Part shown: positions 18,104 to 25,049 of the stretch, piece after piece
Layout of the letters: each line of letters starts with the position of its first letter
Numbering within the stretch: position 1 is the first letter of the stretch
NCBI GenBank assembly: GCA_016789105.1
Contig: JAEURN010000004.1
Coordinates: 372,001-436,000 of the forward strand
Length of the DNA stretch: 64,000 nucleotides
Source of the DNA: Armatimonadota bacterium
GTDB taxonomy: Bacteria; Armatimonadota; Fimbriimonadia; Fimbriimonadales; Fimbriimonadaceae
Reading direction: 5' to 3'
The notes under the pieces: generated by a model
What the model was told of the DNA's origin: nothing
The model's database searches: none
Seen by the model: only the letters and a program-made list of their open reading frames with translations
Position numbers and translations under genes: made by a program

Positions 18104-19402
18104 ATGGGAAACCCCATCACGAAATCGCCGCAAGGCTTGAATGTCCCCAACGATCCGATCATCCCATTTGTCGAAGGCGACGGGATCGGCCCAGATATCT
18201 GGCGGGCAAGCCAGGCTGTGTTTGATGCCGCCGTTGAAAAGGCCTATGGCGGCACCCGCAAGGTCGAATGGCACGAGGTTTTGGCCGGCCAAAAGGCATT
18301 CGATACGACTGGCGAGTGGCTGCCGCAAAACACTCTTGACAAGTTCGACCAGTACTTGGTGGGCATCAAGGGGCCGCTAACGACCCCGGTGGGCGGCGGC
18401 ATCCGGTCCATCAACGTGGCCCTGCGCCAGATGCTGGACCTCTACGTGTGTCTGAGGCCGGTTCGGTGGTTCACCGGGGTTCCCAGCCCTGTCAAACAGC
18501 CGGAACTCGTCGATATGGTGATCTTCCGGGAAAACACAGAAGACATTTATGCGGGGATCGAGTTCGTTGCCGGGAGCGGGGAGTCGGGCGCGTTCCTGGA
18601 TTTCATGGAGAAAGAGTTTCCGGCGATGTTCAAAAAGATCCGGTTCGGCACCAAAGACAAGGTCGATGGGTGGAACCACGAACTCGAAAGGATCGGCGCA
18701 CCGGCCCGCGACTTGCCGGTTCAAGTGGGGATCGGCATCAAACCGGTCAGCTACAGCGGCACCGAGCGGCTCATCCACAGTGCCATCGAATATGCGATCC
18801 AAGAAGGCCGGAAGAACGTCACCTTTATCCACAAAGGCAACATTATGAAGTTCACGGAAGGGGCGTTTATGGATTGGGGTTACGACGTGGCGCGCAACTT
18901 TTTTGGGGCGGTGCCGCTGGATGGAGGGCCATGGCATGTGATCCCCGAAGGTCAACGCGGTGCCGGCCTGGTGATCAAGGATGGGATCGCCGACGCCTTC
19001 CTCCAACAGATCTTGCTGCGTCCGCAAGATTACGACGTTGTCGCCACGTTGAATTTGAATGGGGACTATATCAGCGATGCCCTGGCGGCCCAAGTCGGCG
19101 GAATCGGCATTGCACCCGGTGCCAACATCAATTACATCAGCGGGCATGCGATTTTCGAGGCCACCCACGGGACGGCACCCAAATATGCCAACTTGGACAA
19201 GGTCAACCCGAGTTCGGTGATCCTGAGCGGCGAAATGATGTTCCGCTACATGGGTTGGACAGAAGCTGCCGACCTGATTGTGAGCGGGGTGGAAGGGGCC
19301 ATCAGTGCCAAAACGGTGACCTATGATTTTGCCCGGATGATGCCGGATGCAATCGAGGTGAGCTGCTCTGGGTTTGGCAAAGAAGTTGTCAAGCACATGT
19401 GA
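18104..19402 (+). CDS. icd: Isocitrate dehydrogenase (NADP-type)
   Basis: A 432-residue enzyme oxidising isocitrate to 2-oxoglutarate in the TCA cycle. Its signatures are the N-terminal [15 protein letters not shown], the substrate loop [24 protein letters not shown] (with the Ser that E. coli phosphorylates), [11 protein letters not shown], and late in the protein [26 protein letters not shown] and [22 protein letters not shown]. The HGTAPKY context fits bacterial NADP-dependent enzymes. It is divergent from the AlkD-like gene with 85 bases between, containing no clear ribosome-binding site. Confidence 0.96.
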
Positions 19403-19419
19403 GCCGGCAACCTGGCATG

Positions 19420-19457
19420 GATCCCCGGCCCATCCGTGTTTTGGATCGGCCGGGATC
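19420..19457 (+). terminator. Possible hairpin terminator after icd
   Basis: A long imperfect inverted repeat begins 17 bases after the icd stop: GATCCCCGGCC pairs with GGCCGGGATC with one bulged base, enclosing an inner ATCC/GGAT pair. No T-tract follows, so the call is tentative. Confidence 0.35.
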
Positions 19458-19524
19458 GAAATCTGGGTCTGACCTGTCGATGTCCCATTTCGGAAACCCG
19501 GTTGTTTTGCGGGCAACTATCTGA

Positions 19525-19530
19525 TAGAGT
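19525..19530 (+). promoter_or_regulatory. -10 element TAGAGT, leaderless type
   Basis: TAGAGT ends 6 bases before the ATG at 19537, and TTGTTT at 19502-19507 lies 17 bases upstream of it as a -35 candidate. The transcript would start at or next to the start codon. Confidence 0.6.
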
Positions 19531-19536
19531 TGTTGC

Positions 19537-21363
19537 ATGCTGTCGGCCATCAGCGCATTAGTGCTTTCCACGCCCCTGATCGTCCGAACCGAAAACACCG
19601 TCCCCATCGCGGTTGTCTCGTTGGAGACGATCCAGGAAAACCGTTCGGTGGAAGGGGTCGCCCGCCTGCTGGATGTGACTTACAAAGCCGAGTTCATCCC
19701 TCAAGCGGTGCCGGATGCCGGCACTGTCAACTTGCGGGGATTCCGGAACCTGAACTTCCGTTACAACGATTCGCCAGGGAAGTTCGAAATGAGACCCGTG
19801 TTGGACTCGTCACTGCTTGAGCAAATCGAGGTCTTGCGGGGCACCCAGGCGCTTTCAACCTACGGGGGATCGGCGAGCGGGGCGGTTTTGAACTTGGCGA
19901 TTCGGGACACGTATTCGGCGGTTCCGCGGGGGACGAACATGTTCAAACCGATTTCGGTCGACCCTTTGCAGTTTGCCCAGCAAGGGGGCTGGAACAGGCA
20001 GGAATATAGCTTCAACAAGGAAAAACTTAGCCTGGACTATAAGATCTCCGCGAGCTATTCCTATGGGGGGAAGTCGTACCAGGATTATGTCGATAAGGGG
20101 TCAATCGGACTTGGTCAGATTTGGATGCCAGTGGGAGAGCCGACAATGTCGAGCTTTGTCCCCGACGGGAAACCAAACAAGGACCTGCAACACGGCCTGG
20201 GGGGGATTTGGGTTCAGCCGCAGAACACCGAACTCGGATTCCAAGCATTTTTTCCGCCTTTGACCTTAGGCCAAATCACCAGCGGCAAGACACCGCAGGG
20301 TTATGTCACGGATGTCGAGAAGGCCAATGGTGAGATGGTTGTCAAGTCGATGCAGAAGTTGGGCTATTCGTTCCCGCAGATGATCGCGGCTCTCCAAACC
20401 CTTGCCCCGGAAGGCACGGACATGAACCGGTTGAACTTTCCTTCTTTGGATGGTGACCCGTGCGATTACGACTTGGACTGCCCGCCGGGGACGATCTGGT
20501 ACCCCAGTAACCCGGCATACCAGGCGATGATGACGGGTGTGCGATATTCGCGGCTGACCTTTGCCGAGGTCTTCGCCGGGATCGGCCGGGGGGGCCAGGA
20601 TCCCCGTGCGATGAGGGTTCTGTGCATGAACATGGAGAAGAAGGAGCCTGCCGCGGGGGTGAAGTACTACCCTTACCGGCCAAAAGATCCCGTCATTTCT
20701 TCGCTGGCCAATTTGATGGATCAGGCGAATTTCCGCGGACCTTGGGATCAAGCGCGGCTGTGGATCTACACGGACAAAGCGACTTATGAGCAGGTCAACG
20801 AACGGCTTGTCAACGGGGTCGGGCAATCCGCCTACTTGATGGCTTTGGCCGACGTCGCCTTTGCGGGAGGGTTGGATGACAAGATGTTAAAGGATCCCAA
20901 ATACGTCAAGCCGGAATTCATGATTGGCTCAGGCGCTCCGTCCTACGCCCGGACGTGGTTGATGGAGACCTTGGACGCGTTCCACCCCAAGAAGGCTGGC
21001 GAATGGTTGAAGGGCAATGCGGCGACGATGCTCCAACTGGTGGGCCCAAAAGCAGACCAGGATGACAACCAACATCTGGCCGACACCCTCCGCCGGATGA
21101 CGTCGTTCAGCGCGCCCGAAGACCGGGAGGCGGCGCTCCGGTTTATGAGCGCGGCCAAGGCCCAGATCGGGATGCTCAAGGGCAAGTTGGGATCGGGGAG
21201 CGATTCGCTCTACTCCGGCCGGGAATCTGAAGTGGCTTTGGCGCTTGCCTTGGTCAAAGAAGGATTCCTAACCCAGGCAAACGATGCCTTGGCGTATGTG
21301 GCCGAAAAGGGTCCAGGAGATTCCAATAAGGCACTGGCCAAACAACTGTTGGCGGGCGGGTGA
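19537..21363 (+). CDS. TonB-plug domain fused to an unknown domain (no beta-barrel)
   Basis: A 608-residue protein. After a hydrophobic N-terminus, residues about 22-127 match the TonB-dependent receptor plug: a VPIAVVSLETIQ entry, NLRGFRNLNF in the RG position, and SSLLEQIEVLRGTQALSTYGGSASGAVLNLAIRD, the hallmark plug ending. The rest is not a 22-strand barrel: from about residue 165 to the end it is clearly homologous to the next gene's product, with a central GDPCDYDLDCPPGTIWYPS block and a long helical C-terminus. Function is unknown; location in the periplasm or outer membrane is inferred. It and its neighbour lie in tandem, each with its own promoter-like sequence. Confidence 0.8.
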   Translation: MLSAISALVLSTPLIVRTENTVPIAVVSLETIQENRSVEGVARLLDVTYKAEFIPQAVPDAGTVNLRGFRNLNFRYNDSPGKFEMRPVLDSSLLEQIEVLRGTQALSTYGGSASGAVLNLAIRDTYSAVPRGTNMFKPISVDPLQFAQQGGWNRQEYSFNKEKLSLDYKISASYSYGGKSYQDYVDKGSIGLGQIWMPVGEPTMSSFVPDGKPNKDLQHGLGGIWVQPQNTELGFQAFFPPLTLGQITSGKTPQGYVTDVEKANGEMVVKSMQKLGYSFPQMIAALQTLAPEGTDMNRLNFPSLDGDPCDYDLDCPPGTIWYPSNPAYQAMMTGVRYSRLTFAEVFAGIGRGGQDPRAMRVLCMNMEKKEPAAGVKYYPYRPKDPVISSLANLMDQANFRGPWDQARLWIYTDKATYEQVNERLVNGVGQSAYLMALADVAFAGGLDDKMLKDPKYVKPEFMIGSGAPSYARTWLMETLDAFHPKKAGEWLKGNAATMLQLVGPKADQDDNQHLADTLRRMTSFSAPEDREAALRFMSAAKAQIGMLKGKLGSGSDSLYSGRESEVALALALVKEGFLTQANDALAYVAEKGPGDSNKALAKQLLAGG

Positions 21364-21501
21364 ACCGGTTCGGAGTACGGAACAAGAGTCATTGAAAAAT
21401 GCCTTAGTGGGAGATTACTTGCCAGAGCCTTCGATTTGACTCATCAGGTGAATCCCCGTAAAAACATTGGCATTCTGCAACATAGGAACGATGCCATTTG
21501 A

Positions 21502-21507
21502 TAGAAT
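21502..21507 (+). promoter_or_regulatory. -10 element TAGAAT, leaderless type
   Basis: TAGAAT ends exactly 6 bases before the ATG at 21514. No good -35 is visible at 16-18 bases. Confidence 0.6.
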
Positions 21508-21513
21508 ACGCCT

Positions 21514-23346
21514 ATGTTGACATCGGTGGTCGCCTTTGCCGTTATCGGAGGGATAAAGACTTTTCAAGACCCAGAGGCGAGATCGATCATCTCAAACCCT
21601 TTCAAAACCAGCCGCGAAAAGGTGATGGACGGGGGCAAAGAGGTGGAAGCCGATGTGACCTATTACGCCACGTTTTCACTACTATCGAACAGTTTGACCC
21701 CTAGCGAACAGATGAATAGGGTTTTCCGTACCTTGGATGTCCGACCAGAACATCCCGGCGAGCGGTTCAACATGAGCTGCATTTTTGAAAAGGTTGATCC
21801 GAATGAAGGGGAGATGTTGGAGGCGTACCTGACGTTTCGGGAATTCGGGGCGAGCGAGTCGATAGGAGCCGAGATTCTGAAGGCAATCAAGTCGATCACC
21901 GCCTATTCGGCCGGAGTTGGCAAGGACGCGGTGAGTTGCGATCCGAACAGCGGCATCAAGCCCGACGGTTGGACACACCGCGAATACGGACATAGCCTCT
22001 CAAAGTGCGTATGCGCTTACCAAATCACCAAGGTTTGGTCAATCGGTGGGAAGAAGTCGTCAAAAGTTGAGAAGGGCGGGACCATTGAAATCGGTGATAT
22101 GTGGACGCCGAAGAGAGATCCGCTTGTTGATCGCTTTAGGCCAGATGGAGAGCCGGAAAAAGAGACCCAGGAGGAGATGGGCGGCGTTACGGTGAAGCCT
22201 TCGCCAACTGCAAACCCGTTCCAGATCTTCCTCCCCCAAATCAAAGGGAACCCTTACTACCCCAGCATCAAACCGGTGCAATACATCAAGGATGTTACTG
22301 AAGAAAATGGCTCCGAGCTTGTAGACCTCATGGTGAAGGAAGGCTTCACCATCCCCCGCATGATCGATATCCTTGGCAAGATCGCCCCGGAAGGAACCGA
22401 CATGAACCGTCTGAGCTTTTTGGAGGGTGGCGACCCGTGTGATAGCGACATGGATTTCCCTCCAGGCACGATATGGATTCCAAGTGACCCCGCCTACCAA
22501 TCGATGATGACCGGGGTTCGGTTCAATCGGAGGATTCTCGGCTTCGACCTTTATGCAAGCCTGAACCCGGCTCCTCAAGATGGAAAGTTCGCTATGCGCA
22601 CGCTTTGCTTGAATATGGAAAAACGGGAACCGGCAAAAGGGGTGAAGTATTATCCCTACCGCCCCAGCGACCCGGTGATCCCAATGCTCGCCCGACGGAT
22701 GGACGAATCACGTAGCCGGGGCCCCTGGGATCAAGCCCGAATGTGGATCTACACCGACAAGGCGACAATGGAGATGGTGAACCACAAGTTGGTCAACGGG
22801 GTTGGGACATCAGCCTATCTCATGGCTTTGGCAGATGTCGGATGGGCTGGCGGGTTGAGCGACAAGATGCTGAAAGACCCCAAGTTTTTCACTCCAGAAC
22901 TGATGTTGGGCTCCGGTGCCCCGGAATACGCCTCTTCTTATTTAATGGAGGTCTTGGACGACCTGCATCCAAAAAAAGCTGGCGACTGGCTCCGCAAAAA
23001 CGCGACGTCGATGTTGCAACTGGTCGGCCCCCAGGCAGACCAAGACGACAATAAGCACCTTGCCGAAACCTTGCGCCGGTTGACCCTGTTTAATGCGCCG
23101 GAAGACCGAGAGGCTGCCTTGAAGTTCATGTTGGCAACGCAGAAGGAACTGGCGGGACTTAAAGGGCAGCTAGGAAGCGGTCGGCTAGCCCTTTACTCGG
23201 GCCGGAACGAAGAGGTAGCGCCAGCGCTCGCGTTAGTCAAAGCCGGGTACTTAACGCCAGCGAAAGATGCCCTTGAGTTTGTAGCAGTGAACGGCCCGGG
23301 CGATGCCAACAAGGCATTGGCTAAAGAGATATTGGGCGGCCTTTAA
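21514..23346 (+). CDS. Paralogue of the preceding protein, without the plug domain
   Basis: A 610-residue protein of unrecognised family with a hydrophobic N-terminus (VVAFAVIGGI) that may be a signal or anchor. Residues 30-165 differ from the paralogue (no TonB plug; several Cys at about 149, 172 and 174 instead). From about residue 180 the two align: GDMWTP...RPDGEP, APEGTDMNRLSF, GDPCDSDMDFPPGTIWIPSDPAYQSMMTGVRFNR, MRTLCLNMEKREPAKGVKYYPYRPSDPVI, GPWDQARMWIYTDKAT, VNGVG-x-SAYLMALADV and GSGAPEYA. The C-terminal 250 residues look helical and repeat-like. By eye the C-terminal part is well above half identical to its neighbour, so this is a recent duplication with an N-terminal domain swap. 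Confidence 0.75.
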   Translation: MLTSVVAFAVIGGIKTFQDPEARSIISNPFKTSREKVMDGGKEVEADVTYYATFSLLSNSLTPSEQMNRVFRTLDVRPEHPGERFNMSCIFEKVDPNEGEMLEAYLTFREFGASESIGAEILKAIKSITAYSAGVGKDAVSCDPNSGIKPDGWTHREYGHSLSKCVCAYQITKVWSIGGKKSSKVEKGGTIEIGDMWTPKRDPLVDRFRPDGEPEKETQEEMGGVTVKPSPTANPFQIFLPQIKGNPYYPSIKPVQYIKDVTEENGSELVDLMVKEGFTIPRMIDILGKIAPEGTDMNRLSFLEGGDPCDSDMDFPPGTIWIPSDPAYQSMMTGVRFNRRILGFDLYASLNPAPQDGKFAMRTLCLNMEKREPAKGVKYYPYRPSDPVIPMLARRMDESRSRGPWDQARMWIYTDKATMEMVNHKLVNGVGTSAYLMALADVGWAGGLSDKMLKDPKFFTPELMLGSGAPEYASSYLMEVLDDLHPKKAGDWLRKNATSMLQLVGPQADQDDNKHLAETLRRLTLFNAPEDREAALKFMLATQKELAGLKGQLGSGRLALYSGRNEEVAPALALVKAGYLTPAKDALEFVAVNGPGDANKALAKEILGGL

Positions 23347-24041
23347 GCAGCCGTTTCTCCGACGTTGACGTTCCAGACCGGGCGGAAATGCTCGACAAGG
23401 GTCGGGAAGATTCCGGCGCAAAGGCTGAGCCGGTGGCCGACATAGTGCAGGCCCCCCGGATCTTTGAGGATATAGATTTGCACGCTTTTGCCGCGTTGCA
23501 AAGTGGCCCGCAAATATTGGTTGTACCGTTGCAAATGGGCTGGGGCAGAATTGCTGGTGAGCGTTGCCAAGCTTTGGCCCAAAGATCTTGGGGAGTTGGC
23601 AATGTAAACAACGGCCCCATCGATGGTGAACGCAATCAGGATGTCGGCAATTTCGTTTTTGTCGCCGACGAAGAAGTTGATCCCGGTTCCAGACAGCGTG
23701 AAATCGCCGACCCAGATGAACCCGGTTTGTTGGAGTTCCAAGATGTGCTCTTGCCCCTTGGGCACTTCGGGGAGTTCGTCGGCGGTGGGGAGCTCGACCC
23801 CCATTTCTTCGGCAACATCCCTTTGGACGACCTGGGATTCTTCGGTGACGACGTAGTTGCCGCCGGGCTTGCCGATCCGTTTGATACGTTTGACGACGCC
23901 TTCTGATTCCAATTGGCGACAAATGAGGGAAACGGCTTGGGTGCTGGGCACGAATTGACGGAGGGCGTAGGCGATTTCTTCATCGCTTGCCCCGTTGTTT
24001 TCGTGGAGGAAATCCACAACCATGTTGCGCAAGGACTGCAT
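23343..24041 (-). CDS. Winged-helix protein with C-terminal GIY-YIG-like domain (degenerate?)
   Basis: A 232-residue protein. Residues 1-66 fit a winged helix-turn-helix: VVDFLHENNGASDEEIAYALRQFVPSTQAVSLICRQLESEGVVKRI, with the wing in GKPGGNYVV. After an acidic linker, residues about 100-228 form a second domain whose pattern (GAVVYIANSPRSLGQSL, a YNQYLRATLQRGKSVQIYILKD stretch and a terminal LVEHFRPVWN) resembles the GIY-YIG nuclease fold, but the catalytic Arg position reads Gln and no clear catalytic Glu is seen. That reading is tentative. It converges with the preceding paralogue with a 4-base overlap. Confidence 0.6.
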   Translation of the reverse strand: MQSLRNMVVDFLHENNGASDEEIAYALRQFVPSTQAVSLICRQLESEGVVKRIKRIGKPGGNYVVTEESQVVQRDVAEEMGVELPTADELPEVPKGQEHILELQQTGFIWVGDFTLSGTGINFFVGDKNEIADILIAFTIDGAVVYIANSPRSLGQSLATLTSNSAPAHLQRYNQYLRATLQRGKSVQIYILKDPGGLHYVGHRLSLCAGIFPTLVEHFRPVWNVNVGETAA

Positions 24042-24140
24042 GGTCTGACAAAAAACTTATCGGTATCTGTCGTGCCGAACTGGAATCAGCCCCCATCCGG
24101 GGGGACGGAGGCTGATGGAGTGCAAACGGTTGCCAGCCGG

Positions 24141-24935
24141 TTACGACTTGCGCTTTTTGCGGGCAGCCACAGCGGCCAGTCCGGCAATCACAAGCATAGA
24201 AGCCGGTTCGGGAACCGCGTTGATGTTGTCCCAATAGACGCTGTAGGCGCTGGCCGGAGTGTGGGTGGCATCGCTAAAGTTATACGCTTGGACGAAGACG
24301 GTCCGGAGTTCCGGGCTGGCCAAGCTGGCATCGGCGTCGGTGTAAACCAGGTTCCCGTCCAGGTAGTAATCAGCTGTCGATCCATGGCTGGTGATGGCCA
24401 AATTGTGCCAACCGGTGGTGACCGCGTCGGCCAATGTGACCCAACCGTTGGCCGTATCGGCATCCCAAATGCGCCACACGTTGGATTTGTTGGTCGCGCC
24501 TTCGTTGAACGGGTCGCTGTCATCGAACCGCTTGGCCCCGAAAATCCCGTAGAACGCGTTGTTTTCGTTGGCGTTGTTGTCGCGGGTCCACAAGTCGGTG
24601 CGCCAGTTGAATCCGCTGGTCAGCATGTCGCTGCTGATGTAGACGTCCCCGCTCACCGTCCAATCCGGGCCGATATTGCCGCCCGGGCGTTGGCGCCCTT
24701 GGGTGTTGTAGAACGTGCTAGTGTTGTATCCGCTCGGCCGGTTGTTGTAGGCGTCGGCCGGGTCAATTGTGATCTTCAGCCGGTTGTCGCCATCAAAGAA
24801 CGCCGATTGGAAGCCGTTTGGTTCGTAGCGGTCGGTTACCCACGCTGGGTCGATGGAATCAAAGGTGTCGCTGAATTGGGCGAAGGCGGCAGACGCGCAA
24901 AGCGCGAGCGCAGCGATAGCAATGGTTCTTTTCAA
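24141..24935 (-). CDS. Secreted PEP-CTERM protein with concanavalin-like domain
   Basis: A 264-residue exported protein. The start is TTG at 24935, with AGGAG five bases before it; this gives a clean signal peptide (LKRTIAIAALALCASAAFA, cut before QF). The body (FSDTFDSIDPAWVTDRYEPNGFQ... to VYWDNI) looks like a LamG/concanavalin-type beta sandwich, as in laminarinase-like or polysaccharide-binding proteins. The C-terminus is a textbook PEP-CTERM sorting tag: VPEPASM, a hydrophobic helix, then RKKRKS. It would be processed by an exosortase and attached to the surface or released with exopolysaccharide; no exosortase gene is in the window. Confidence 0.9.
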   Translation of the reverse strand: MKRTIAIAALALCASAAFAQFSDTFDSIDPAWVTDRYEPNGFQSAFFDGDNRLKITIDPADAYNNRPSGYNTSTFYNTQGRQRPGGNIGPDWTVSGDVYISSDMLTSGFNWRTDLWTRDNNANENNAFYGIFGAKRFDDSDPFNEGATNKSNVWRIWDADTANGWVTLADAVTTGWHNLAITSHGSTADYYLDGNLVYTDADASLASPELRTVFVQAYNFSDATHTPASAYSVYWDNINAVPEPASMLVIAGLAAVAARKKRKS

Positions 24936-25049
24936 TTGTGCTCCTCTCGAAACCCACCTCAACGGAGGCGGAGAATCAACCGGATTTTAGCAGGATTCCT
25001 CATCGGTGTCGATTCGTTGCAAAAAAACCTGGCAATTATTCGGGGGACG

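Follow-up and report, generated by a model that had tools for sequence, protein, structure and literature searches.

Tandem paralogues and their domain architecture

The 64,000-nucleotide stretch of an Armatimonadota genome analysed here (JAEURN010000004.1, positions 372,001 to 436,000, forward strand; "the window" hereafter) contains a tandem pair of paralogous genes, whose two open reading frames (ORFs) lie head to tail and encode the proteins P0001 and P0002 (Table 1). Identity between them is 51% across residues 46-607 (BLASTP), ranging from 25% in the first 130 residues to 67-68% in the C-terminal half, and the blocks APEGTDMNRL, GDPCD-x-D-x-D and GPWDQAR-x-WIYTDKAT are common to both. 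An earlier note had recognised the paralogues and their shared C-terminal region, both of which stand, and had assigned a different N-terminal region to the second copy, which is contradicted by an alignment that runs through both copies from residue 46.

Relatives were found in 37 of the 113 genomes of the order, and full-length members were seen only in Fimbriimonadales. Proteins of this family consist of an N-terminal module that evolves fast, followed by a beta region, the conserved core at residues 290-445 and, at the C-terminus, helical repeats of the ARM/HEAT type; they share similar hydrophobic, secretion-type N-termini. The repeats are identified by a profile of residues 450-608, which matches designed ARM-like proteins (4rv1) with E=2.2e-9. 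An AlphaFold model of the whole of P0001 (model 1; 29 sequences, mean pLDDT 82.9) points the same way: ARM/HEAT matches dominate the PDB fold search made with it, and it aligns with the beta-catenin repeats (3sla) over 121 residues at an rmsd of 2.7 and a VIA-align Z of 11.0, a value that is in itself weak for helical repeats.

Table 1. Features of the gene pair (window coordinates; residue numbers refer to P0001 unless stated otherwise)
Feature	Position	Strand	Basis
Gene 1 (P0001, 608 aa): plug-scoring N-terminus, beta region, Cys/Gln core, ARM/HEAT repeats; secreted-type	19537..21363	+	
Gene 2 (P0002, 610 aa): paralogue with the same core and ARM/HEAT repeats, without plug score	21514..23346	+	
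Leaderless-type -10 element of gene 1, TAGAGT of TGATAGAGT-N6-ATG	19525..19530	+	same spacing and near-identical sequence before gene 2
Leaderless-type -10 element of gene 2, TAGAAT of TGATAGAAT-N6-ATG	21502..21507	+	
Hydrophobic N-terminus, probable Sec signal (1-19)	19537..19593	+	sequence; similar hydrophobic start in family members
First plug-like stretch (20-48)	19594..19680	+	within PF07715 match 20-117
Stretch alignable with P0002 (46-87; DVTYxAxF ... FRxLxxR ... PGxFxM)	19672..19797	+	BLASTP
Second plug-like stretch (92-123, SLLEQIEVLRGTQALSTYGGSASGAVLNLAIR)	19810..19905	+	PF07715 match; armatimonad plug HMM
Beta region with long hairpin (139-264; strands 151-176, 179-198)	19951..20328	+	AlphaFold models
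Conserved Cys/Gln core (290-445): strands, then three helices	20404..20871	+	family alignment, model 1
Invariant Gln329, candidate thioester Gln	20521..20523	+	68/68 aligned, three with inserts by eye
Invariant Cys363, LCMN motif, candidate thioester Cys	20623..20625	+	alignment
Invariant Pro371	20647..20649	+	alignment
Invariant Gln405 and Trp409 (QxxxW, helix 402-413; TQxxPhiW-like)	20749..20763	+	alignment, model 1; motif PMC6194298
ARM/HEAT-type helical repeats (450-608)	20884..21360	+	profile and fold match
Gln329 of gene 2, equivalent of gene 1 Gln329	22498..22500	+	alignment
Cys365 of gene 2, equivalent of gene 1 Cys363	22606..22608	+	alignment
Gln407/Trp411 of gene 2 (QxxxW)	22732..22746	+	alignment

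An invariant Cys/Gln core

The core carries the sole invariant positions among 29 aligned family members, namely Q329, C363, P371, Q405 and W409. Of the 72 core-bearing sequences, 71 retain both Q329 and C363 (for the Gln, 68 by alignment and three with long inserts by eye), and every core sequence that aligns retains Q405 and W409. L164 alone departs from this: Q329, C363 and P371 are all lost there, and QAAVW is kept. In each of the 33 family members aligned for it, the spacing from Cys363 to Gln405 is 42, and C363 is retained regardless of which other cysteines occur; the parity of the cysteine count, considered as a sign of a free cysteine, was uninformative (12 of 31 odd). In model 1, C363 closes the strand 358-363 (LCMN at 362-365), Q329 (YQAMM) is located at a strand and Q405 and W409 sit on a helix (DQARLW), the helices after the core strands spanning residues 385-396, 402-413 and 417-423.

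A core profile search of Armatimonadota found the core in other orders of the phylum, alone in proteins of about 208-291 aa or in other fusions, and it is therefore a unit; in L152 it is fused to a region resembling the copper-amine-oxidase N-terminal domain, just under the cut-off of that domain. The earlier note had taken the shared region to be undescribed, and the results bear it out: the core is not covered by any model in Pfam or NCBIfam, and a PDB sequence search with it found nothing. The interesting conserved part of these proteins is this undescribed domain and not the plug, and, with five invariant residues across the phylum, it deserves a name.

Several deviating architectures were also observed. 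In distant members (L014-L032) the N-terminal 150 residues hold, in place of the plug-like module, a Cys/His-rich region (C-x3-C-x-G..H..H..CD..CD..C...H), possibly a metal-binding or disulfide domain and without a Pfam match. In L085:2808-6512:+ (1235 aa) and L086:1-3012:- (at least 1004 aa) the core is followed by long coiled-coil-like regions, and in L147:444-2180:- it is fused to PEGA and FGE-sulfatase domains.

An apparently mosaic N-terminal module with plug-like stretches

The plug domain of TonB-dependent receptors (PF07715) matches P0001 residues 20-117 with E=1.9e-6 and 28.8 bits, above the curated cut-off of 23.9, and has no match in P0002. With a plug hidden Markov model (HMM) derived from 20 armatimonad TonB receptors and applied with 746 ORFs as controls, L006 and L007 score 60-62 bits, L010 25.8, P0001 14.2 and L012 13.4, all of them members of the P0001/P0002 family and belonging to four lineages. 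The next-best control ORF (L087, 4.1 bits) is itself a family fragment, and the best unrelated ORF reaches 4.0 bits. The plug stretches lean towards different receptors: that of P0001 towards siderophore receptors of the FhuE/FpvA kind, that of L006 towards BtuB/Cir and that of L010 towards Cir. Judged by these profiles, the plug signal in P0001 is real and represents eroded sequence related to the TonB-receptor plug.

The signal is discontinuous. Between its two plug-like pieces, P0001 aligns with its non-plug paralogue (DVTYKAEF / DVTYYATF, FRNLNFR / FRTLDVR and PGKFEM / PGERFNM, BLASTP), and an HMM of non-plug N-termini weakly covers P0001 residues 20-99 (12.6 bits, E 0.06). In L012 the plug halves lie at 67-112 and 217-239, 105 residues apart. 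In a phylogeny built from the C-terminal half, P0002 is the sister of P0001 (98/97), with L004/L005, in whose genomes Pfam Plug has no match, beside them, and the plug-scoring label requires at least three changes; a single vertical origin of the plug is compatible with this tree (one gain plus losses, three changes) but hard to square with L012. Between L006 and L007 (L092:4206-6056 against L093), from sister species, the first 185 codons differ at 14 of 98 fourfold sites and the remainder of the gene at 91 of 199 (p=4e-8). This suggests that the N-terminal part was exchanged recently, although similarity above the average is seen in other patches of the neighbourhood too. Purifying selection acts on the gene in both close pairs of the family (dN/dS 0.03 and 0.08), the overall value for L006/L007 being 0.03. 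The N-terminal module therefore appears fast-evolving, mosaic and patchily plug-like rather than a folded plug, and seems to hold remnants or captures of TonB-receptor sequence. It is unusual for receptor sequence to persist outside receptors as these scattered stretches do, at least one of the genomes concerned having no other detectable plug.

The earlier note had seen in P0001 a plug without a barrel and had suggested a TonB/ExbBD-type partner for it. The missing barrel is confirmed: PF00593 has no match to E=10 in 29 family members, and what follows the plug-like part of P0001 is the family-specific beta region, core and repeats. The partner is not borne out. No TonB_C (PF03544) or ExbD (PF02472) was found at E<=0.01 in the source genome and 12 near relatives, with positive controls detected, and no other plug domain was found in the source genome; one relative (G085), however, carries a receptor plug yet shows neither TonB_C nor ExbD, so that the models may miss armatimonad versions. 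As for the plug itself, the sequence match stands and the fold, expected at residues 22-127, was not predicted. Model 1 places antiparallel strands at 25-75 (pLDDT ~70-86) and weak helices at 91-128, and a second run with N-terminal rows limited to plug-scoring members (model 2) gave pLDDT below 50 at residues 1-52 and 94-133, again with no plug. An isolated plug may be disordered without its barrel, which makes prediction a weak test. Because neither a Ton companion nor another plug was detected in the genome and both models lack a plug fold, the plug-like part of P0001 is probably not a working Ton plug in the source organism. A narrow literature search found no paper on a barrel-less plug fusion.

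Promoters and genomic surroundings

The earlier note had given each gene its own leaderless-type promoter, and TGATAGA(A/G)T-N6-ATG indeed stands upstream of both with identical spacing; TANNNT occurs at the corresponding place in 2.5% of random positions. A similar element is present at one of the first starts of 12 of the 44 long ORFs of the window. Neighbouring genes with Pfam matches encode isocitrate dehydrogenase, DNA alkylation repair and prolyl-tRNA synthetase, all housekeeping functions, and a PEP-CTERM-like protein; no Ton-related gene is among the Pfam matches of the adjoining genes. The PEP-CTERM-like protein is small, adjoins the gene pair (window 24144-24962, - strand) and has a weak laminin-G-like match. 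An Rfam search of 19000-24200 gave no match. The genome (2.75 Mb, 99.96% complete) has as its named relatives Fimbriimonadaceae and other Armatimonadota metagenome-assembled genomes.

A candidate thioester domain and its alternatives

Thioester domains (TEDs) consist of a six-stranded barrel and a three-helix bundle (PMC6194298, PMC4450167) and carry a Cys on a strand in a [YFL]C-Phi-zeta motif as well as a TQxxPhiW helix (PMC6194298). The bond-forming Gln belongs to a Phi-Q-zeta-Phi-Phi motif on a strand C-terminal of the Cys, and the Gln and Trp of the TQxxPhiW motif do not form the bond (PMC6194298, PMC4450167). P0001 has the Cys motif at the end of strand 358-363, the residue before the Cys being mostly L, A or H in the family, and the helix motif is present as the invariant QxxxW. 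L164, a homologue of the core, has a sub-cut-off match to TQXA_dom (E=2.6e-4). Q405 was dropped as the thioester Gln, as its counterpart in TEDs is not bond-forming and L164 keeps the Q405 motif while losing the Cys.

We tentatively propose, at somewhat less than even confidence, that the products of the two genes are secreted binding proteins, located in the envelope or outside the cell, which belong to an undescribed Fimbriimonadales family and have a thioester-type core. With similar reservation, this core may work like a TED without being filed as one, a structural role being equally likely. C363 and Q329, on adjacent strands, would then be joined by an internal thioester, and the helix that bears Q405 and W409 would pack against the back of the Cys, in the role that the TQxxPhiW helix has in TEDs. 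Through the thioester the protein could attach covalently to an amine on a surface, as is known from bacterial adhesins; its ARM/HEAT repeats would bind a partner protein, and its N-terminal module would differ according to the target, the plug-like stretches of this variable module being real remnants or captures of TonB-receptor sequence with no Ton-gated plug action. Ordinary TEDs exist in the phylum as short PEP-CTERM-type proteins, and thioester chemistry is therefore at hand in these bacteria; those seen in other Armatimonadota genomes (L125-L134) are small secreted proteins with PF08341 above or near cut-off, several with PEP-CTERM-like tails.

A number of results weigh against a thioester core. 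PF08341 has no match to E=10 in 29 members, and no PDB sequence match links the core to TEDs. Profile-profile comparison (hhalign) with nine armatimonad TEDs, taken as whole domain, as core only and artificially permuted, gave P of 0.06-0.55, bringing Cys and QxxxW into register without significance, and permuted and native order were indistinguishable (0.064 vs 0.068). The fold of model 2, which is without the ARM repeats, has no match at Z>=5 (all Z <4), and neither a TED nor a TonB receptor is among the VIA-align matches listed for it, although a permuted fold could escape and the core was folded within a larger model. Q329 precedes C363 by 34 residues instead of following it, and the domain would therefore have to be permuted or convergent. 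Furthermore, the joint loss of Q329 and C363 comes from one sequence (L164), and secretion of the family is deduced from hydrophobic N-termini only. TED membership of the core is thus not established.

An explanation of the same probability is that the invariant Cys, Gln, Pro and Trp serve structure through hydrogen bonds and packing, or bind a metal or ligand, and that the proteins are secreted scaffolds which bind partners via ARM/HEAT repeats and form no thioester. ARM/HEAT repeats are binding platforms in general, their match here is solid, and the lack of a significant profile link or fold match to TEDs also speaks for it. That a secreted protein holds one invariant Cys, kept whatever other cysteines are present and lost together with the Gln, points instead to a special role.

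The plug fold might also have been kept and reused without TonB, for example as a ligand-binding cap or as a decoy entering the TonB-receptor barrels of other cells. The similarity of L006/L007 extends over the whole domain at about 60 bits, at least four lineages are plug-like, and purifying selection reaches residues 1-130 of that pair (dN/dS 0.08). Such reuse nevertheless seems improbable, given a middle of the supposed P0001 plug that aligns with P0002, the distance between the L012 halves and, as a weak test, two predictions without a plug. A plug score that arose by chance, or by convergence in a beta-rich module that evolves fast, would suit the modest HMM score of P0001 and its E=0.046 against the best PDB receptor, but such an origin is very unlikely in view of the low scores of unrelated controls and of four family members that match several TonB-receptor models (NCBIfam). 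A plug working with a TonB/ExbBD-type partner in the source cell, for which the above-cut-off Plug match speaks, is largely refuted: no TonB_C, ExbD or other plug was found in the nearly complete genome, although divergent versions might escape, and the neighbouring genes are housekeeping ones.

Returning to the thioester proposal, its most far-reaching form, which we regard as unlikely, would make the core a new circularly permuted Cys-Gln thioester domain, widespread in diderm Armatimonadota and housed in secreted proteins with ARM repeats, into whose N-terminal module fragments of TonB-receptor plugs would repeatedly have been taken up, perhaps for recognising the receptors of other cells.

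Comparison with known systems

Compared with the TonB receptor plug, P0001 shares the above-cut-off match over residues 20-117 and the IEVLRG...YGG...NL motifs, but it differs in having no barrel, in a genome with no detected TonB/ExbD, in a fold that is not predicted and in a middle part alignable with P0002. With ARM/HEAT repeat proteins it shares the profile match of residues 450-608 to designed ARM-like proteins and the structural alignment with the beta-catenin repeats, whereas here the repeats are few and belong to a secretion-type bacterial protein.

The likeness to TEDs (PF08341; TQXA domain TIGR03934) lies in a Cys that is the only invariant one and belongs to a strand motif of the LC-Phi-zeta type, a helix with QxxPhiW, another invariant Gln located at a strand (Phi-Q-zeta-type), the succession of strands and three helices, and the secreted-type nature of the proteins. 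The differences, apart from the position of the candidate Gln, are that the Thr of TQ is Asp in most family members and that the family, in which no LPXTG stalk was seen, is fused to ARM/HEAT repeats. Should the core prove to be a thioester domain, the chemistry of covalent adhesion, known up to now chiefly from descriptions of Gram-positive surface proteins, would reach a diderm phylum, with a changed order of residues and in a new architecture that joins it to ARM/HEAT repeats.

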